Positions 1,389-60,228 of a stretch of 64,000 nt of DNA are shown here, piece after piece. Below the pieces are notes generated by a model. That model did not search any database and was not told the origin of the DNA. It saw nothing but the letters and a program-made list of their open reading frames with translations. The translations under genes and the position numbers were made by a program. Each line of letters starts with the position of its first letter. Within the stretch, counting starts at the first letter, position 1. The stretch comes from Acorus gramineus. Taxonomy: Eukaryota > Streptophyta > Magnoliopsida > Acorales > Acoraceae. The DNA is taken from contig CM060848.1 of the NCBI GenBank assembly GCA_030737835.1, positions 7,462,063 to 7,526,062 of the forward strand, written 5' to 3'.

Positions 1389-1424
1389 ATCTTGTAGACC
1401 GGACGCGCGGCGATCCGGGTTGCG
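1389..1424 (+). other. Predicted 36-nt microexon, LTR B1
   Basis: Bounded by TTTTGCAG and GTGAGTGG. Read from its third base it gives L-V-D-R-T-R-G-D-P-G-C plus one spare G, matching the frame used in the other copies. Confidence 0.5.
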
Positions 1425-13440: not shown

Positions 13441-13563
13441 AGCCCACAAACTATGCTCCACGTACCGACAGCCCATGACCCAATTAGCGATGGCCCATGA
13501 ATCAGAAGGCCCACAATACGTGGATCCAATCCAACAGACCCTCCATACTCAACGATCAAGCCC

Positions 13564-13986
13564 ATGTCCTTCGAAGCAGGAGACGTCCGTAAGCATCCCA
13601 ATGATTCCAAAACCAACTTCCGTGGCTTGTGCAAGACGTTCATTGGACATTACATCTGCCACTGCAAGCCGAAAAAAGACATTGCAAACCTATTCGTGAT
13701 GAAGCAGGCCAATGGCGAACGACTGAAGGACTATCTCACTCGCTTCAGCCTTGAGATGACCCAAGTGGACGACTGCGATCCAAAGACCGCATCTATGGCC
13801 TTTCGTTCAAGGCTTTTGGCATCGGAGAATTTTTATGAATCCCTCGTCCGGAAGTTGCCCATCAACATGACTAACAGCTACATTTGGTTAGAGGAAGACC
13901 CTTCCCTCGCTAGCCAGAAAAGCACTACGGCTGTGACTATCGGACCCGCACTGGAAGGAGGGGCCAATCTCAAAGAAGCAGCCTAG
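13564..13986 (+). pseudogene. gag fragment of a Tat-lineage Ty3/gypsy retrotransposon
   Basis: A 140-codon open stretch contains the retrotransposon gag core: residues FVMKQANGERLKDYLTRF, then VDDCDPKTASMAF and a FYESLVRKLP motif, the pattern I know from Tat/Ogre-type gag proteins that assemble the particle around element RNA. It starts mid-domain, and the upstream coding frame is lost. A zinc knuckle follows 170 bases later in another frame, so at least one frameshift separates them. The piece is a relic with no complete polyprotein. Lineage placement is from motif memory and could be a sister clade. Confidence 0.75.
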
Positions 13987-18525: not shown

Positions 18526-18561
18526 CAATACCTGGGTCGTCGCGTGATCGTCCGTCAAGAT
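18526..18561 (-). other. Predicted 36-nt microexon, LTR A1
   Basis: Minus strand: TCTTGCAG, 36 nt, GTGAGTGG. The in-frame reading is L-D-G-R-S-R-D-D-P-G-I plus one base. Confidence 0.5.
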
Positions 18562-20338: not shown

Positions 20339-20375
20339 ATCTCGTCAGAAGGGATGCGCGAGGTCCTGGGTTGCG
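20339..20375 (+). other. Predicted 37-nt microexon, LTR B2
   Basis: Between CCTTGCAG and GTGAGTGG. One base longer than the common form, so it would shift the frame relative to the other copies. Confidence 0.4.
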
Positions 20376-28094: not shown

Positions 28095-28130
28095 CGATAG
28101 CCGGGTCGTCGCGCGACCGTCCGTCCAGAT
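28095..28130 (-). other. Predicted 36-nt microexon, LTR A2
   Basis: Minus strand: TCTTGCAG, 36 nt, GTGAGTGG. In-frame reading L-D-G-R-S-R-D-D-P-A-I plus one base. Confidence 0.5.
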
Positions 28131-31466: not shown

Positions 31467-32475
31467 TTTAGTTTTGCATTTAATTTATTAATCTTTTCAT
31501 TAACATGTCCCACATTTTAAGGAGTTTGTTTTTGCTCTTTTATATTGTTAGTTAAAAATGAAAACTTAAACAATCATTTATCTTATCTGTGGTGTGATTT
31601 TTGTTTTGTTTTTATTTATTTATTTATTTGGAAGATTAATTGTGTTGTTACTCATTATATATATTATGGAAAATGTTACACTCAATCAGTTTCTCAGTCT
31701 CAAACTCAGATCCCACGTAGCATCTGACATGGTGAGAGCGGGGTGACGTGGAATCATTTAGCGGGCCCGGATGAATTTTGAGAATTTTGAATTTCAAAAT
31801 TCCTCGATAAGGGCGGACTGACGAAATCGACTGACAGACATTAAATCATTTAACATTTTTAAAATAAAAAAACGCTGAACCGACTTACAGGCATTAAATG
31901 ATTGTAACATTTTTTTAAATAAAATAATGGATGGCGTTGAATGCTTATCCCCTTGAAAAGGAACGCTGACATTGATTTGATGGCTTGAGTGGATGTTTCT
32001 AAATGTACTAAAACAACAATGTGGAGTCTGAAAAAGCTGAGCATACTCTGACGGATGTGGTATATACTTCTATTATCTGGTATATACCATGAAACACAAA
32101 TATATCTGGCGTGACTACCGAGGACAAGCTGACGATAAGGTCCGATAAAAAGCTTTCAATTTTTGCGTATTTTATTTCAACTTTGTTCTCTCTCCTATTA
32201 CCTCATGAAGACTCATATACTATCTTTGACCAATCCTTTCGTCTTTCACAAAACGAAATCTCTCCCTCTCTCTATCTCTCTTCCTTTCGCCTCTCTCACT
32301 CACCCTCTGATATAATTGATATGGCTTACTATCGGCGTCTGCAAGTGTGGTATTTCACCATTGTCTTCACCGTTTTGCCAATGCGGTACCTCTGCTGCAT
32401 CTTAACTGTCTTTGAAGCATGGATCTTCTGCGTCTTCACCCTTGTCTCCCTTTTGATTGTTGCTTCCTTACTTTC

Positions 32476-32897: not shown

Positions 32898-34819
32898 ATT
32901 TAATGTCTTGGTGTTTCAATTGTTTTTAATCTTATCTTGTATCTTTGAAAATAAAGATTGTAGATTCAAAAATTTGGCCAAATATGCTATATTCAAAAAT
33001 AACGTTTGTGCTATATAATCATATACCTTCTTGAACTGCTATATAATTATATTAGGTTAGTATATATTGCTTACGGATTATTCGTTTGTTATCGATTTCC
33101 TTTTTTCTAGTGTTATTTATTTATATCTAGGGAAAAATCCATATAACCCCTGTAATATGGCCTAAATCCATATAACCCACTGCAATCTTCATAAATCCAT
33201 ATTATTATATATGTATCACTTTTTAGCCTTATGGTAACCATTGGAGCATTCTGGCAGTTTTTGAGTTTTTTCATTTTTCGATCGGAACCGCAAAAATTTT
33301 GGACTGTTAGCTATCGTCCTGAGCTAGAGGACTCCGATTGAAAATCTAACTGCATATTATGTGTCCTGGTGCCATTCTAAGCCACTCACGAAATTTTCAT
33401 CGAATTCCGGTAATGTTTTCAAAATTTCGCAGTTTCGGGGCGTATCCGGGTTTTGACCGAGCGAGAAGTCATTGGGAGAGTTGACTCGGTCAAAGTGGGC
33501 CCATGACTTGGTCAACCCTTTTTGTTTTTTTTGTGTGGTTGGGTTGACCCAAGTCAAATCCCACTTAAAGCCTCTCTTAAACCTAATTAACCCTTTCTTA
33601 ACCCTAATCTAAGTGAGGGTTATATATTAAGTGAATCTAAAAAGTCTCCCCCACTATTCATCATCTTCTCAAATTAGTTTTCTCTCTCCCCCTCTCTCCT
33701 TTTCTTGGTTTTGAGCCACCTAGGGTGCTTGAAGCTTAAAACTCAAAACATAGAAAGGTTAGATCCGGTCCTGATCTATCCCCCGGTGTTCTCGGATTCG
33801 AGTTCCGACAAGTTTGGCCCCCTCTAACCCCCTCTATTCTCCCCTGTTTTCAGCCCCTTTTGAGGTAGGAGGAGGTCTTGGTGGTGGAGATCCGTTGGGA
33901 GGCGTTTCGGTGCACGAAGATCCTCCGGTTCCCTTCCTTTCCTCTCCTTTCCTTGGGTAAGGGTTTTTCCTTCTTTTTCATGTTTAGATGCATGTTAGGA
34001 GGGTGTGGTTGAGTGTGGAGGGCGGCTGGTGGCTGTCGGTGGTGGTTGGGGGCGGCCGGAGGCCATTGGTGGCCGGTGGGTGGTGGTGGAGGTGCTCGGG
34101 CAGGGTGGTTGGCTGTCTCGGGCAGCAGGCAGCACAGGCAGCGCAGCAGGCAGGCGCAGCTGGCGTGCAGTGGCAGGGCGCGCGCGCGCGTACGCGCGGA
34201 CGTGCGCGCGGGCGTGCGCTCGGGTGGCGCAGGCGCTGTGTTGGGCGCTGGGTGTGCTGGGCGAGGGTGCTGGGCGCGGGCGCTGGGCACCGTGCGGAGC
34301 GTGCGCGCGGAGCGCTGCACAGAGGCGCAGGCGCAGGGTGTGCGCGCGCGACGGGGAGAGCAGTCGGTGCGAGCGGGCGGGTGCGCGTGCGGAGCGCTGC
34401 GCTGGGGCGCAGTGCGCGCGGGTGCACCCGGGGCTGGTCGAGTGGGTGATGCGTGTGGTGGTGCGCGCGGAGTGCGCGCGGGGCGAGGCGCTGGGCGCGG
34501 GGCATGCGGTGAGCGCGCGGGCTACTGCGCTGGGGCTCAGCGAGCGCGCGGTGCACCCGGGGAGCTCGGCTGCGTGTCCTGGCGTGTGGGCAGGGGCTCG
34601 GCAGGGAGCCTGGGTGCGCAAGCTGGGGCGCGGCGATGCATCTGGAGGCGGGTGGCCATGCGGGTGGTTGCCGGGGGGCGAGAGTGAGTTGGGGTGCTCG
34701 GGCTAGCGTGCGTACGGGCCGTATGTACGTTTGCCCGAGCGTTGGGTACTTTTAGAGTGTTTCGTGTATTTTTGTGGTATTTGTGGATTATACTCACTAA
34801 GTTGATACCTGTCTTGCAG

Positions 34820-34855
34820 ATCTTGACGGACGGTCGCGCGACGACCCGACTTCCG
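34820..34855 (+). other. Predicted 36-nt microexon, LTR A3
   Basis: TCTTGCAG, 36 nt, GTGAGTGG. In-frame reading L-D-G-R-S-R-D-D-P-T-S plus one base. Confidence 0.5.
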
Positions 34856-35959
34856 GTGAGTGGGACAATCCAACCCAGTTGAGAGGCGCTATATGCACTT
34901 GGGCGTATACCGTCCTCCCCTGGGGCACCATAGATTAATATTAACCTGTTTAATATGTAATCCATGCAGCATGATTGATATGTAGTATGCATGCTACCCT
35001 AGACTGAGTATGTTAGGGACTTGCACCCTTAGGTTGTGTAAGAGCCATGCATCTTGTCACCTTGTTATCATGCTAGGAAAGCCTCGGCCTTTGTATGCTC
35101 CTATTAGTTTAATTTGTTAAATTAAATGCAACTGGTAATATTATTGCATGCCTTAGGGAATATTAAGGGGCCTTGCGAGGTCAACATTGAGACCCGGGCT
35201 AGGGTGCTCCGTGTTCCTTGTTTGGTGGTCGGGACGTCCTATATCGGGACCTCATGGTGCCCTCCCAAGGTTTCATTTCCTGTCTATATTAATGCATGTT
35301 CCCCGCATCTTGGTTATGCGCCCTGGAGGAATTCTGATGAATTCAAGACATTAGAGTTGTAGAGATGTGTTGTCAGCGGATCCGAGTGGATCATATGCGT
35401 GTGGGTAGGCTGTTTCTCTTCCCTTCGTTGGATCCGTGTAGGAACTCCTCAGCGTTAGACAGGCTATTCTGACAGAGGGCTCCCATCAGTAGGCACCTCC
35501 TGATCTTGGACTCGGACCGTGCTGAATGTGGGAAGACCAGGCAAGCTACGGTGTGGAGGAGAGGCTATCGGTGGACCAAGGATGATTAACAGCCTAGTCA
35601 GTCCCAATATCCTATGTCACCCATTGAGGGGTAAGGGTGAGGGTGTATGCATGTGTATGGATGTGTATGGAGGTGTTTGGATGATTATCAGTCCCAATAT
35701 CCTATGTCACCTGTTGAGGGGTGAGGGTGAGGGTGTATGGATGTGTATGGAGGATTATAAGTCCCAATATCCTATGTCACCTATTGAGGGGTGAGGGTGA
35801 GGGTGTGGTGGTTCAGCGATGTAACGGACCACTGGATTTATGTTGTTTATGCCACTTTGAGGCTGATTGCTGATTAATTGTGGTTAATATAAACTGTGAT
35901 GCATGGGTTGCGCTATTCACTGAGCGTGTGGCTCACCCCTCGCATAATATTTTCTCCAG

Positions 35960-36012
35960 TGTCATCTGAGTCGGATTTGGAGGAAGAGCTCCCCGAGGGA
36001 CTTCATCAATAG
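35960..36012 (+). other. Predicted terminal coding exon part, LTR A3
   Basis: After acceptor TTTCTCCAG the frame set by the microexon reads VSSESDLEEELPEGLHQ then TAG. It is preceded by the invariant box GTGGCTCACCCCTCGCATA, which also supplies a branch-point-like CTCAC. Confidence 0.45.
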
Positions 36013-36159
36013 CGTAGTAGCGCCACGTCCCGCAAGTATCAGAGGCTATTAGCATCCCTTGTGCTTGTATGTATTATATTTCGTGCTTGGGCACGCGTTT
36101 ATATTATATTTGGATGTCTTCGTATATATTGGCTCTCACAGGACAGTTGATTATGTATC

Positions 36160-36191
36160 GAGTCTGTAATATGTTTTTGGATTACAGATTC
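36160..36191 (+). repeat. Conserved hairpin near LTR A3 end
   Basis: GAGTCTGTAAT and ATTACAGATTC pair around ATGTTTTTGG. The same hairpin is found in all LTR A and B copies that keep this end (for example 53372-53401, 26790-26825 and 41086-41122). Confidence 0.7.
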
Positions 36192-36361
36192 AGTCTTTTA
36201 GCTTCCGCTATTGGTGTATATATCATGTCAGCCCTGCTTTTGTTGTCTTTGTTCATCATTTTAGCTGTTGTGTGAGTATGTTATTGAACTCCTGTTATAC
36301 TGATATCATATAAACACTTGCCGCATCCTGGGGTCGGCCGGCCCTGGGGCGTGACACATAT

Positions 36362-36724: not shown

Positions 36725-38189
36725 GGGGGTTGGATCAAACCACTCACAGATACCTGTATCGTCGCACGTCCGGTCTACGAGATCTGCAAAACACAACCAA
36801 TGATCCACAATTAAAATATGGAACCTCCTATCACACATATAAGCCTACTTCATGAAAGCCCTAACCCCTGATACTTCCATATTATCACCCAAGACACATG
36901 CAAACAACTCCTTGACACTCAACCAAGCAAAACTGCCAAACCTGCTGCAACCAGCCCTACTAATTGGTCTCCACAGCACCCAATACACTTCCAAAAATTA
37001 TGAAATAAATCATGCACATTCTCTGATATGCTGGGATCATAATCCATGAGACATTAGAACCTAATTTTGCCTCTACAAGCCCGAAACAAATTATTTCCAG
37101 AAGCAGTACAATTCCTACGCGAATCTGGACAGGCCATGCAAAACTGGTTCTAACTTACACCACAGATATCATAATGACCCCAAATTTCATATATAACAAC
37201 TAGACACATAGATGATCATATCATATGAGACATAATCCTAAAAATGTGCCTCTAAATACTAGATTCACTGAGATCTTTAAAATGCAGAGTGCTGCCTTAC
37301 CAAAACAGGGGGAGGGAAATGGGGAGATGCGGGGTTCTCGACACACCCACGACCACCTCAACCACCACCACTACCACCGCCTCATCAGCATCTCCTCAAG
37401 CCCTTCATGGCAGAAAACAGGGTGCAAAGGGGGCATGAGAAGGGAATAGAGAGAAGAGAAACAACAACAACAACCACAACAACAACAACACAATACTCAC
37501 CCTTTCTCACTCTTTCTTGTGCTTCTTCTTCATCTTTTCCTCCATTAACAACACACACACAACCAAAAAAAAAAACAGAGAGGGAGAGGGAGACGAGAGT
37601 GAGAGAGAGTGAGAGGTTTCCACACAAAGGGGGCCTTAAATGGAAATAAAGTGAGTTGGTGGGGGGAACAAGACCAAATCGTCCCTGACCAGAAATTCTG
37701 GACGGGCTTCACTAGAACAGCCATAACTTCCACGATATAGCTCCGAATTGCACAATTCAAAATCCTTTGGAAAGCAAAGAAGTTTATCTACAACTTTCAT
37801 GTTTATGCCAAGATCAAATAATCCCTCCGGCTATTCCGAAATGAGAGCTAAACATTGAACAGGGCTGCTACCAGAATTTTTCATCCCCGGAGTATACTTG
37901 GAAAAATACCCATAACTTTTACTACATGCATCCAGTTGATCTAATTCCACTTTTGTACGAAAGCTAACTCAAAACTGAGCATCTCATGATAAAATATTAT
38001 TTAAACCTCTTCATCTTGGATTTTAACAAAATTAAATCCAAATACCAAATCAGAAATAAATAACTTCTAGGAGAAAAATTATGTAGCCAAATTTTCAATC
38101 AGAGCGCTCCGACTCCTGCAGGTGGCTAAAAGCAAAAATTTTAGTGACTCTGATAAAAAAATAAGGTTCCAAATGACATAGGCATAATA
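36725..38189 (-). mobile_element. Truncated 3' LTR (B4) of the chromovirus
   Basis: Minus orientation; its outer (TG) end at 38189 abuts the polypurine tract. Only the first ~1.47 kb of the LTR remains, and the edge at 36725 falls just past the microexon (36748-36783) in a C/G-run. It is nearly identical to 45960-47425 of the partner LTR, apart from scattered substitutions and small indels. Confidence 0.85.
36748..36783 (-). other. Predicted 36-nt microexon, LTR B4
   Basis: Minus strand: TTTTGCAG, 36 nt, GTGAGTGG. Confidence 0.45.
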
Positions 38190-41224: not shown

Positions 41225-44200
41225 CATCGCACATGCAAGAACTACATGCACGATAACCTATCAAATAATTATAGGGATACTCCCTAACATGGATTTACCT
41301 CAAAATAAATCATACAATATGCATACATGGCCATTAATCACATAAGCACACAAGGCCTAACTTAAGTATGCGTTGGATATCACCAACTTAAATGGGGAGG
41401 GTCAAGCGCGATCTCGCGCACTAACAGGTGCATGCCAATATTCCAAACGAACCTGAGTCGAGTAGGAAATCGCATCTACTTACTCAGTTCGTACAAAGGG
41501 AGAGGGCGAGAGAGAGAGCTCATCATCTCTTGAAGTTGGTCATAGCTTTGCCCCACTATCATGGGCGCAAAACTACACCACGCCCTCGAGTCTTATCGCA
41601 AGGGAATATTAGGCGTGTGCCCATTATTAACCCAGACTTAATCATGCTGGATATTCCAATTAATATGGTAGGAGTAGTATTACAATACTACCTAAGGCAT
41701 GCCATATTCTATACATCCATACACATTACAGAATACATGCCCATACTAGAGGGGCGCATGCGATACAATCATTCACACATGGATACAATACATGCAATAT
41801 AAGCCTAGCATGCAAGATATCTAACATATTATAGTTTAAGCATGGCCTAAAAAATCGAAAGAACGCTCCACGCCCATAAGACCACGCCACAAGGAAGCTC
41901 CAGCTCCACGCCCAACACTGCCCCTGAAAAGAAACAGTATGCGAGGGGTGAGCTACAAGCTCAGTGAGTGGCTGGAAACCAATCACCATTACAACAGTTT
42001 AATACTAAAGCAATTTCCTTTCAAGGAAAACATGGGTAGAAACCCAATAGACAACAAGGTCACGTGGCGGCGTGACCAACCTCACCCTCACCCTCACTCC
42101 CAGAGGAAGACTCTTGGGACTTTTGGGGAGAGACCATACCGTTGGTCGAAGAGACGCGGAATTACTGGTCCACACAACACTACTGGATCACCAACCTCAC
42201 CCTCACCCTCACTCCCGGAGGGAGACTCTTGGGACTCTCGGGGAGAGACAATACCGTTGGTCGAAGAGACCCGGGATTACTGGTCTACACAACACTATTG
42301 GATCATCTACATCGAGATAACTGCCCAACGTTGTCTTTGAACATCGATACGCAACCGGACCCAACAATTATGGGAACGGATGAACAACGAATGGGTCACG
42401 CGGCGACGTGTCTTCACCTCATCCTCACCCTCACCCTTTAGAGGTGACATAGGACTTTTGGAGAGATTAGACTCCTCTACACCCTTGGTCCACCGGTAGC
42501 CCTTTCCCCGGGTAGCCTCTACCTGGTATACTCCCACGATCAGTACGCTTCCGAACGCATCGGTGGTACCTACGGATGGGAGCCCTTTGTCAGGACAGCT
42601 TTTCCAACACCGGGAAGTTCCTACATCGGATCCAACGAAGGGGAGAACGATTCCACGCTCGCAATATCATTTGTTAGCCCTCTCCCGGGTAGCCTCTACC
42701 TGGTATACCCCCATGATTAGTACATCTTGCCGCATGCATCGATAGTACCTACAGGTGGGGGCCCTTTGTCAGGACAGCTACAACCTGGGCCGCTTCAACA
42801 CGGACGACATTGGGAGGAAACACTCCATGTTCGCAAAGCGAACCCAATGGAAAAACAACTACTCTCGATAATCACATATCGATGATATCGAATACTATTG
42901 TACTCCCACACGGTGGCGTCGCTTGGACACAAGGGGGGGTTGCCTCTGCTCTCACGCAGAAATAATCCCAAGGCACATAACCCAACAGGCGGTTCATATA
43001 CACGCCTCGCACGGGTAGGCCTAGCTTAATGCCACAACTACCGGCTTAACAAAACCGATAAGATAATGAATTCTCCTGAATTCCAAACGAGTGCATCGCT
43101 CGGATGCACGGGGGCGATTACATCGCTAGCGCTCTGACTAATAAGGTACAACCCAACAACGGGTCATACCCACACCTATTGCAGATAGGCCTAATCAGTT
43201 TTAATATGCGCATATATATATCCAGGAGAAATATATCTAGTTATGTACATGAACTACATGCACGATAACCTATCAAATAATTATAGGGATATTCCCTAAC
43301 ATGGATTTACATCATAATAAATCATACAACATGCATACATGGCCATTAATCACATAAGCACACAAGGCCTAACTTAAGTATGCATTGGATATCACCAACT
43401 TAAATGGGGAGGGTCAAGCGCGATCTCGCGCACTAACAGGTGCATGCCAATATTCCAAACGAACCTGAGTCGAGTAAGAAATCGCATCTACTTACTCAGT
43501 TCGTACAAAGGGAGAGGGAGAGAGAGAGCTCATCATCTCTTGAAGTTGGTCATAGCTTTGCCCCACTATCATGGGCGCAAAACTACACCACGCCCTCGAG
43601 TCTTATCGCAAGGGAATATTAGGCGTGTGCCCATTATTAACCCAGACTTAATCATGCTGGATATTCCAATTAATATGGTAGGAGTAGTATTACAATACTA
43701 CCTAAGGCATGTCATATTCTATACATCCATACACATTACAGAATACATGCCCATACTAGAGGGGCGCATGCGATACAATCATTCACACATGGATACAATA
43801 CATGCAATATAAGCCTAGCATGCAAGATATCTAACATATTATAGTTTAAGCATGGCCTAAAAAATCGAAAGAACGCTCCACGCCCAGAAGACCACGCCAC
43901 AAGGAAGCTCCAGCTCCACACCCAACACTGCCCCTGAAAAGAAACAGTATGCGAGGGGTGAGCTGCAAGCTCAATAAGTGGCTGGAAACCAATCACCATT
44001 ACAACAGTTCAATACTAAAGCAATTTCCTTTCAAGGAAAACATGGGTAGAAACCCAATGGACAACAAGGTCACGTGCCGGCGCGACCAACCTCACCCTCA
44101 CCCTCACCCTCACTCCCAGAGGAAGACTCTTGGGACTTTTGGGGAGAGACCATACCGTTGGTCGAAGAGACGCGGAATTACTGGTCCACACAACACTACT

Positions 44201-45875
44201 GGATCACCAACCTCACCCTCACCCTCACTCCCGGAGGGAGACTCTTGGGACTCTTGGGGAGAGACCATACCGTTGGTCGAAGAGACCCAGGATTACTAGT
44301 CTACACAACACTATTGGATCATCTACATCGAGATAACTGCCCAACGATGTCTTTGAACATCGATACGCAACCGGACCCAACAATTATGGGAACAGACAAA
44401 CAACGAATGGGTCACGCGGCGACGTGTCTTCACCTCATCCTCACCCTCACCCTTTAGAGGTGACATAGGACTTTTGGAGAGATTAGAGTCCTCTACACCC
44501 TTGGTCCACCGGTAGCCCTTTCCCCGGGTAGCCTCTACCTGGTATACTCCCACGATCAGTATGCTTCCGAACGCATCGGTGGTACCTACGGATGGGAGCC
44601 TCTGTCAGGACAACTTTTCCAACACCGGGGAGTTCCTACATCGGATCCAACGAGGGGGAGAACGATTCCACGCTCGCAATATCATTCGTTAGCCCTCTCC
44701 CAAGTAGCATCTCCTGGTATACCCCCATGATCAGTACATCTTGCCGTATGCATCGATAATACCTACAGGTGGGGGCCCTCTATCAGGACAGCTACAACCT
44801 GGGCCGCTTCAACACGGACGACATTGGGAGGAAACACTCCATGTTCGCAAAGCGAACCCAATGGAAAAACAACTACTCTCGATAATCACATATCGATGAT
44901 ATCAAATACTATTGTACTCCCACACGGTGGCGTCGCTTGGACACAAGGGGGGGGGTTGCCTCTGCTCTCACGCAGAAATAATCCCAAGGCACATAACCCA
45001 ACAGGCGGTTCATATACACGCCTCGCACGGGTAGGCCTAGCTTAATGCCACAACTACCGGCTTAACAAAACCGATAAGATAATGAATTCTCCTGAATTCC
45101 AAACGAGTGCATCGCTCGGATGCACGGGGGCGATTACATCGCTAGCGCTCTAACTAATAAGGTACAACCCGACAACGGGTCATACCCACGCCTATTTCAG
45201 ATAGGCCTAATCAGTTTTAACATGCGCATATATATATCCAGGAGAAATATATCTAGTTATGTACATGAACTACATGCACGATAACCTATCAAATAATTAT
45301 AGGGATACTCCCTAACATGGATTTACATCATAATAAATCATACAACATGCATACATGGCCATTAATCACATAAGCACACAAGGCCTAACTTAAGTATGCG
45401 TTGGATATCACCAACTTAAATGGGGAGGGTCAAGCGCGATCTCGCGCACTAACAGGTGCATGCCAATATTCCAAACGAACCTGAGTCGAGTAGGAAATCG
45501 CATCTACTTACTCAGTTCGTACAAAGGGAGAGGGCGAGAGAGAGAGCTCATCATCTCTTGAAGTTGGTCATAGCTTTGCCCCACTATCATGGGCGCAAAA
45601 CTACACCACGCCCTCGAGTCTTATCGCAAGGGAATATTAGGCGTGTGCCCATTATTAACCCAGACTTAATCATGCTGGATATTCCAATTAATATGGTAGG
45701 AGTAGTATTACAATACTACCTAAGGCATGCCATATTCTATACATCCATACACATTACAGAATACATGCCCATACTAGAGGGGCGCATGCGATACAATCAT
45801 TCACACATGGATACAATACATGCAATATAAGCCTAGCATGCAAGATATCTAACATATTATAGTTTAAGCATGGCC
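41225..45875 (-). repeat. Tandem ~2.0-kb segment, two full units and one partial
   Basis: Homologous landmarks repeat at 41428, 43440 and 45456, and at 41939 and 43949. The units differ by few substitutions, so the expansion is recent. Shared junctions show that one primary rearrangement was then amplified, most simply by unequal exchange. Confidence 0.9.
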
Positions 45876-45986: not shown

Positions 45987-46022
45987 AGATACCCGGATCG
46001 TCGCGCGTCCGGTCTACGAGAT
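45987..46022 (-). other. Predicted 36-nt microexon, LTR B5
   Basis: Minus strand: TTTTGCAG, 36 nt, GTGAGTGG. In-frame reading L-V-D-R-T-R-D-D-P-G-I plus one base. Confidence 0.5.
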
Positions 46023-49967: not shown

Positions 49968-50006
49968 ATCTCGTCGGATGGGATGCGCGAGGTCCCGGGT
50001 CATAAG
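49968..50006 (+). other. Predicted 39-nt microexon, LTR B6
   Basis: Between CCTTGCAG and GTGAGTGG. Three bases longer than usual, and the corresponding frame ends in TAA just before the donor. Confidence 0.4.
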
Positions 50007-51876: not shown

Positions 51877-51912
51877 ATCTCGACGGGCGGTCGCGCGACG
51901 ACCCAGATACTG
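51877..51912 (+). other. Predicted 36-nt microexon, LTR A4
   Basis: TCTTGCAG, 36 nt, GTGAGTGG. In-frame reading L-D-G-R-S-R-D-D-P-D-T plus one base. Confidence 0.5.
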
Positions 51913-58746: not shown

Positions 58747-60090
58747 TTAAAAATGGCTGCGCGGCCTCCAAGCGGACGCGGTGAGCAGCGATAAGTCCTT
58801 CCACCCGATCTTGAGCCGCCCGCCCTCCTCCACCATCGTGTACCCTTCGCCCGGGTACATCCCCAGCAAAAGCTTGGCCTGCGCCGCGGGACTCCCCCCG
58901 AGCGAAACCATCTCAAACCCAATCCTCCCAAGCTCATCCCCCCACCTCTCCACCTTCACCTCCCCCGTCCGCTTCGGCCCCCCAACTGCCACGATATTGC
59001 GAATTTCCCTCCCGAACAACTCCCTCTCCACTCTATGCCTCTCCTCACTCCCCGCCTCCGCCCCCACCCCCTCCCCCAACGCATCGAACAGCGCTGAATA
59101 GTAATGCAGCGCCTCGATAAACCTCCCAAGAAAGCTCCCCGCATGACTCATATCCTGCTCAACCACCGTGATCAGCCTCGGCTTCATCGCCTCGAGCACC
59201 CGCAACGTCGCCACGTCCGACCCCGTCACGTCGTAGATGCAGTGGTGCATCCAGTGCACCACCACCGCCTCCCCGCGCCGTTCGGATTCCTCAGCCGCAC
59301 AGAGGAGTGCGGGCCCCGCGTCGGACCCGCCGATCTTCCCCACGAGCGGCGTGTACTCGAGCGGGAGGCCGAGGGCCGACGCGAAGCCGGAGAGCGTCCT
59401 GCCAGTGGCGTCGAGGAGCTCGGCGGAGGAGCCTATGCCGGTGACCCTGATGGACTCGACCATTGAAGGTTTGGATGAGAGTATGTGGAAAAGGCCCGGC
59501 CACTGGAGGCCCTGCATGATGTCGAGGTCGATGATGTGAATGCGGGGCTCGTGCTCGAGCGCCTCGAAGATGGCCTGGTTGGCGGTGAAGTGGGAGAATT
59601 TGACAAGTGGTGAGATGGAATTGTAGGACTGGATGGCGGAGAAGATGGTCTTGAGGTTGGGGGGGAGGGGGGAGTAGGAGGAGAGGTGGGAGGTGAGCAC
59701 ACGGGAGTGGAGTGCGTGGGCGAAGTAGGCGGAGACGCGTTCGATGGAGGAGTGGCCGAAGGGGGAGGAGAGATCGTAGAGGAGGGGGAGGAGGTCGGAG
59801 GCCTCGGTGAGGCGGTCCTTGGCGACAGACTCCGCGCACTGGAGGAGGAGGCCGAGGAGGTGGAGGGCGGAGGATTCGGCGGGGGTTATGGATGGAATTG
59901 GGTCTTTGGTGGTTGTGGTGGTGGGTCGTCGCTTGTTGGGGTTGTTGTTGTCGTCGGTGGAGGAGGAGGGGGAGTGGGAGGAGGAGGGGCGGTGGCGCTT
60001 GGGGTTCATGGAGGAGGAAGAGGTGGTGGTGGTGGTGGTGGGGATGGTGGAGGCATTGATTGGGGTCTGATGGAGTAAGCTCTGAAGCAT
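58747..60090 (-). CDS. SCL23: GRAS-domain transcription regulator, SCARECROW-LIKE 23 / SCR type
   Basis: Nuclear plant regulator of the SCARECROW subfamily. SCR and SCL23 act with SHORT-ROOT in endodermis and bundle-sheath specification. The 447-aa protein is a single exon here. Residues 1-70 are low-complexity (Thr/Ser runs, KRHRP and NKRRP basic clusters). Then the full GRAS order: LHR I (LHLLGLLLQCAESVAKDRL, 77-130), VHIID as IHIIDLDIMQGLQWPGL (184-200), LHR II (234-251), PFYRE-type region with VHWMHHCIYDVTGSD and LITVVEQDMSHAGSFLGRF (278-324), and SAW ending GWKDLSLLTASAWRP (429-443). The short N-terminus favours SCL23 over SCR. Start: an in-frame upstream ATG at 60228 would add 46 residues that look like 5' UTR; I prefer 60090. 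No defect seen. Confidence 0.9.
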   Translation of the reverse strand: MLQSLLHQTPINASTIPTTTTTTSSSSMNPKRHRPSSSHSPSSSTDDNNNPNKRRPTTTTTKDPIPSITPAESSALHLLGLLLQCAESVAKDRLTEASDLLPLLYDLSSPFGHSSIERVSAYFAHALHSRVLTSHLSSYSPLPPNLKTIFSAIQSYNSISPLVKFSHFTANQAIFEALEHEPRIHIIDLDIMQGLQWPGLFHILSSKPSMVESIRVTGIGSSAELLDATGRTLSGFASALGLPLEYTPLVGKIGGSDAGPALLCAAEESERRGEAVVVHWMHHCIYDVTGSDVATLRVLEAMKPRLITVVEQDMSHAGSFLGRFIEALHYYSALFDALGEGVGAEAGSEERHRVERELFGREIRNIVAVGGPKRTGEVKVERWGDELGRIGFEMVSLGGSPAAQAKLLLGMYPGEGYTMVEEGGRLKIGWKDLSLLTASAWRPRSHF

Positions 60091-60228
60091 TTTTTTTTTG
60101 GTGGATGGGGGGAGAGGGCGAGGAAGGTATAGAAATTGCCGGAATGAATATGGAATTGGGGCCGTCTGTTTGTTTTGTTGTTGTCTCTTACTGTGAATGA
60201 TTGCCCGGATTTTGTTAGTCCTAGACAT

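Follow-up and report, generated by a model that had tools for sequence, protein, structure and literature searches.

The LTRs of a large chromovirus-type retrotransposon family in Acorus appear to carry a multi-intron transcript leader, in which two upstream introns, named intron 0 and intron 1, are spliced out of RNA that is then copied back into the genome, and splicing of a third, intron 2, would help to separate messenger RNA from genome RNA. We assign this reading, which is built on sequence comparison, a probability of about 0.7. Its upstream half draws on copies from which introns 0 and 1 are missing at exact splice boundaries, and its downstream half on a conserved splice donor and on the consistent retention of intron 2.

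Leader architecture and elements

The LTR described here occupies positions 33203-36356 (+) of the window, the whole 64,000-nt stretch of DNA analyzed (C2:7462063-7526062 of the assembly). It belongs to family A, with relatives in the window, and the CATAT found on both flanks (33198-33202 and 36357-36361) identifies it as a solo LTR with a 5-bp target duplication. A TATA-like motif read from the letters at 33621-33629 is the presumed promoter, and the RNA would start inside the LTR. The leader, all on the plus strand, is composed of exon 1a (33654-33757; 5' end predicted, no ATG), intron 0 (33758-33853; 96 nt, GT...AG), exon 1b (33854-33956, placed by sequence and alignments), intron 1 (33957-34819; GTAAGG...TTGCAG), a 36-nt microexon (34820-34855), putative intron 2 (34856-35959; GTGAGTG...TTTTCTCCAG) and putative exon 3 (35960-36066; no ATG), which ends at GTATGT. 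The microexon, with an established start and a predicted end, is delimited by its bounding pattern, genomic fusions, a gap control and the rate at which its donor is kept.

When the window was searched with the pattern TTGCAG N{30,45} GTGAGTG, 10 matches were returned, against a mean of 0.01 in shuffled sequences. Nine of them begin with ATCT and sit exactly where the preliminary description had placed nine LTR copies of a short segment bounded by TTGCAG and GTGAGTG, while the tenth (32297-32344, minus strand) is unrelated. The lengths given there were likewise recovered: 36 nt in seven copies, 37 nt at 20339 and 39 nt at 49968. Besides the segment at 34820, family A contributes those at 18526-18561 (-), 28095-28130 (-), whose LTR has the intron 0 that locus L033 lacks, and 51877-51912 (+). 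Family B contributes those at 1389-1424 (+), whose 519-nt intron 1 has no equivalent in L044, at 36748-36783 (-) and at 45987-46022 (-), where exon 1 ends in CCCCTGTTTTG before the donor GTAAGG, the basis of the predicted family B junction. The segment at 20339-20375 (+) is of B/C type, and that at 49968-50006 (+) belongs to family C, with an exon 1 end, CCCCCTCCAAG before GTGAGC, from which the family C junction was predicted. The motif GGCTCACCCCTCGCATA, earlier described as common to both families, proved nearly the same in them and not strictly identical: with up to three mismatches allowed, 12 matches were obtained (3 exact, 8 with one mismatch and 1 with two), 7 of which have A as the first letter. 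Throughout the 398.6-Mb assembly, the microexon pattern has 7,452 + 7,588 = 15,040 matches, a total that takes in some unrelated ones too, versus 28 + 28 = 56 for the reversed pattern.

The members are Ty3/gypsy-type elements, some of them Gag-only. In L016, two LTRs that are 99.24% identical over 3,298 nt, with the primer-site motif TTGGTATCAGAGC adjoining the first, enclose a Gag ORF (Retrotrans_gag, E 2.5e-17) and no other long sense ORF. L018 carries a 1,504-residue ORF, two pieces of which match RVT_1 (E 1.4e-36) and SH3_Tf2-1 (E 7.1e-27), together with a match to the integrase C-terminal domain under the curated cut-off and a Chromo match (E 4.1e-4) of 20.6 bits, under the curated 25.1. 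These matches point to a chromovirus, which we suspect to be of the Tekay/Del clade, and the primer site TTGGTATCAGAGC presumably matches the initiator methionine tRNA. The non-coding internal part of L016 (5030-5760) resembles, by eye, the repeat-rich part of intron 2 (window 35440-35810). A fragment of another gag-like ORF lies at 13501-13983 (+) of the window (Retrotrans_gag, E 4.9e-4, 20.7 bits, under the curated 24.1).

Precise genomic losses of introns 0 and 1

Reverse transcription of spliced LTR RNA should leave copies that lack the intron at its exact boundaries. The genome was therefore searched for the exon 1/microexon junction that the predicted donor and acceptor would form, that of family B having been composed from a window donor ahead of the search. 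In family A, intron 1 is absent at the splice boundary in 51 places, with no control match (7 without mismatch, 8 with one, 23 with two and 13 with three, of which at least one, C1:1789673, may be a chance match). Families B and C gave 46 fused places (22 perfect) and 19 (4 perfect), respectively, again with no control match. With acceptor-only patterns, 12,222 places bearing intron 1 were counted in family A, against 2 control matches, and 1,336 in family B, against none, for a sum of 13,558. The fused share is about 0.4% in A and 3% in B; both values are rough, since the two counts rest on different patterns and only part of the exon 1 ends is covered by those written for the junction.

Alignment of L040 with L025 reveals a single gap of 1,116 nt (GTAAGC...TTGCAG) between flanks identical at 199 of 220 positions, and that of L044 with the window copy at 1389 a single gap of 519 nt (GTAAGG...TTGCAG). 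The two LTRs of L040, whose identity is 97.06% over 2,043 nt, have a primer site between them and both lack intron 1, so that in this one element the loss is carried by an element-like insertion. Six more pairs among the 51 family A places, each on one contig and one strand, are spaced by 5.1-7.1 kb, as expected of LTR pairs. Imprecise deletion was controlled for by searching CCCTTG and ATCTTGACGGACGG separated by 0-30 nt: among the 24 places found, 16 are exact fusions and 8 hold a CAG acceptor in the gap and are therefore unspliced, leaving no imprecise fusion.

The fused copies that were parsed number 15: family A supplied 10 of its 51 places and two more covered by one element (L040), family B 2 of its 46 and family C 1 of its 19. 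GTGAGTG follows the microexon in every one of them; the intron 2 acceptor motif is present in 7 of the 10 fetched fused A loci and in both LTRs of L040, and does not fall within the fetched stretch at the remaining 3 A and 2 B loci.

Intron 0, of 91-96 nt, behaves in the same way: of five copies aligned, three lack it exactly. The gap is 96 nt long between L033 and the window copy at 28095, and 91 nt both between L031 and L013 and between L032 and the window copy at 18526, each GT...AG with exon sequence on both sides. The other two comparisons comprise L030, which has no clean alignment, and L039, which has an internal deletion. The latter (minus strand, about 1291-1507) removes 84 nt from inside intron 0 and leaves both splice sites within 12 nt, end to end.

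Such exact losses argue that the LTR introns are spliced and that the spliced RNA has been repeatedly reverse transcribed, and for the upstream introns they supply genomic evidence independent of the motif itself, which supports their splicing. Accounts of a spliced leader with a donor in the preliminary description thus stand for the part upstream of the microexon, where losses of the 33956/34820 type are precise in three families, with one leader intron more (33758-33853) than had been noted; no genomic equivalent of the proposed 34855/35960 junction was found in either family A or family B.

The recurrence of the losses was estimated on a midpoint-rooted tree of 47 copies, 15 of them fused and 32 bearing intron 1, built on exon 1b, the microexon and the start of intron 2; two of the 49 parsed rows, in which the donor was misplaced (L010 at 4106 and L015 at 9255), were dropped. 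The state of intron 1 requires at least 11 changes on this tree (bootstrap range 10-12), 8 of them forced by well-supported branches. Since shuffled labels give a mean of 13 changes, the fused state is hardly clustered.

The microexon donor, intron 2 and the gag acceptor

Conservation of the donor was evaluated in copies picked by the acceptor alone, leaving out a set of 63 loci because most had been picked with the motif. Among the matches listed by the acceptor-only search on contig C1, 63 of 67 acceptor-perfect copies have GTGAGTG 30-45 nt further on, and in one of the four misses (18696220, in L023) the donor is present after 29 nt. The free variation of splice sites and segment length that would have spoken against the earlier proposal is thus not what these copies display. 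Between family A and families B/C (20 pairs from 9 hand-picked copies), ungapped identity is 0.48-0.73 in the microexon, 0.68 at positions +11 to +20 of the donor and 0.20-0.45 further out, the 6 acceptor and 7 donor letters being sampling conditions and excluded as evidence. The acceptor, microexon and donor form an island that stands out from flanks unalignable between the families. The conserved donor indicates that the microexon is likely a complete one. A few bases inside putative intron 2, at 34867-34876 of the window and at the same place in other copies, lies a motif like ATCCAACCC, which is kept better than its surroundings in families A and B/C alike and is possibly a splicing enhancer. 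No excess stability of an RNA hairpin was found in the microexon (mean z +0.24 for 50 distinct sequences against simple letter shuffles).

Loss of intron 2 was searched for as an exon 2/exon 3 fusion. In family B, the genome search gave 0 matches, and in family A a nested LTR insertion (L029) accounts for the sole match, with 0 and 2 matches in the controls. Neither family yielded a copy that had lost intron 2, so proof of the microexon is confined to its 5' side. Nor did the genomic junction search recover any copy in which the gag acceptor is joined to the microexon, to exon 1 or to exon 3. Seven matches to the microexon-gag junction were set aside: L042 is an unspliced leader, L041 an unexplained rearrangement, and for the remaining five the judgement is based only on the letters matched. 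In L041 (1460-1530), an antisense LTR intron 1 abuts GTTGCTGACATGCC exactly at the would-be cut of the gag acceptor. The 53 matches joining exon 1 or exon 3 to gag were judged unspliced from their letters, 52 having CCTTAG and 1 TTTATAG before the gag start.

Of 11 primer-site rows drawn from the three families, 10 have CTTAG ahead of G(K)TGCTGA(Y)ATGCC in the stretch from the primer site to the gag ATG, and as many as five ATGs come before it. The AG has been lost from one of the 11 rows (L023) and the gag ATG is missing from another (L017); both are counted against the model. The two halves of the leader are most simply read together if RNA can still be copied after introns 0 and 1 have been spliced out, while removal of intron 2 costs it something needed for copying, either the primer site, if the leader is joined to the gag acceptor, or a packaging region.

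The distribution of ATG codons provides supporting evidence only. Exon 1a has none in 6 copies (2.2 expected), exon 1b has one (2.8 expected), and exon 3 up to GTATGT has none in 2,133 nt from 19 copies (14.7 expected), while intron 2 holds 789 in 26,379 nt (732 expected) and the LTR stretch past GTATGT 127 in 5,346 nt. These counts are not independent, because the copies are related, and ATG poverty of the leader is not general across families or copies: exon 1 of the five family A copies in which no intron 0 was recognized contains 7 ATGs over 1,503 nt (11.0 expected), and ATGs are present in exon 1 of families B and C.

A possible messenger/genome RNA switch and its alternatives

As we picture it, the host spliceosome removes introns 0 and 1 and joins exon 1a, exon 1b and the microexon, as the genomic fossils show. 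RNA spliced at these introns and unspliced downstream would keep its primer site, undergo reverse transcription and give rise to LTRs without them, and such copying has been repeated, losses being preferred over gains. Intron 2 would begin at the conserved GTGAGTG, and its removal would probably join the leader to exon 3, to the acceptor before the gag ATG, or to both. The resulting RNA would be translated and left uncopied, because the primer site or packaging region would be gone; with copying blocked in this way, LTR splicing would help to separate messenger from genome RNA. We put forward tentatively, at somewhat less than even odds, the stronger proposal that LTR splicing acts as a switch. 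An AUG-poor multi-exon leader would skip the primer site and end just before the gag ATG, retention of intron 2 would mark the RNA for packaging and copying, and loss of introns 0 and 1 would be harmless to copying; intron 2 would never be lost because it, or its splice partner, decides whether the RNA can be copied.

The same fossils could be left if introns 0 and 1 alone were spliced and the "microexon" were the start of a long 3' exon running through the LTR to the primer site and gag, GTGAGTG being conserved for another role, for example as a DNA or RNA element. This agrees with the lack of any genomic intron 2 loss in family A or B and with the retention of intron 2 in all 15 fused copies parsed. 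It does not readily explain why a donor-like GTGAGTG stands at a near-fixed distance in 63 of the 67 listed copies, and also in families with unalignable flanks, and the ATG density of intron 2 would burden translation of an unspliced leader; we consider it unlikely. The segment could instead belong, with exon 3, to the last exons of a small protein gene within the LTR. One frame of exon 3 (window 35960-36012) does stay open to a common TAG in 25 of the 29 distinct sequences, most length differences are multiples of three, and several of the positions at which the family A microexon varies are third codon positions in that frame. However, a coding gene running from exon 1 to exon 3 was not supported, given the in-frame stops in exon 1b of three copies, just before the junction, and the want of a conserved start codon; moreover, the frame is lost in two subfamilies and interrupted by stops in two further sequences, and the microexon varies in length (36, 37 or 39 nt), which makes a gene of this kind very improbable.

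The direction of change also has to be weighed. Because the tree is midpoint-rooted, the polarity of loss is unproven by an outgroup, and an ancestral intron-free state, with introns inserted later at one site, would be compatible with it. Such a history would need repeated gains at one exact site, whereas the fused copies are rare (51 versus 12,222 in family A, 46 versus 1,336 in family B) and scattered among intron-bearing ones, for which reason loss is preferred over gain and we give later insertion hardly any credence.

In retroviruses such as HTLV-1, the major splice donor is located in the R region, and so within the LTR, where one donor serves distant acceptors and no complete intron is known to be contained; the Acorus LTRs share the presence of a donor and differ by their complete introns. 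The introns of Ogre and EVADE lie in the internal region. According to the cited portion of a 2025 review, plant LTR elements are generally without introns, with Ogre (Ty3/gypsy) and EVADE (Ty1/copia) as exceptions that have functional introns and, like the Acorus family, RNA spliced into subgenomic RNA (PMC12786077). Unlike these two, the Acorus family has at least two introns wholly inside the LTR, in the leader, and with its 13,558 intron-1-bearing places it keeps introns in the LTR itself, against the general lack of introns in plant LTR elements. In BARE, spliced RNA reportedly belongs to the separation of RNA pools, and we know of no introns inside its LTR. The distinct RNA pools of BARE retrotransposons, as outlined in the part of the source drawn on here (PMC3735527), parallel our proposal in that RNA for translation is kept apart from RNA for copying, whereas the Acorus copies also record which spliced RNAs underwent reverse transcription. 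The sunflower elements Tyran and Varan have spliced introns and isoforms with truncated GAG ORFs (short-GAG), and thus spliced RNAs beside unspliced genome RNA, as in the Acorus family; a multi-intron LTR leader and genomic intron losses are absent from their description in the sections consulted (PMC7730604). TR-GAG, a term for coding content, denotes two LTRs around a single Gag ORF, an arrangement that we observed in one element, L016, and for which the cited excerpt mentions no LTR introns (PMC9784723). In the open-licence literature, to the extent of the text accessible there, we found no report of introns inside a plant LTR. The genome constitutes a natural record of the spliced RNAs that were copied, as opposed to those not found copied, and thereby opens to direct testing the question of how a single transcript can serve translation as well as reverse transcription.

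The window also contains a single-exon SCARECROW-like GRAS gene (58747-60228, minus strand), 95% identical over 91% of its length to an Acorus calamus protein, the next best match being at 62%, which assigns the host to the genus Acorus. Adjoining a family B LTR, positions 41236-45829 contain a tandem array of three nearly identical units of about 2.01 kb each, spaced by 2010-2018 nt.
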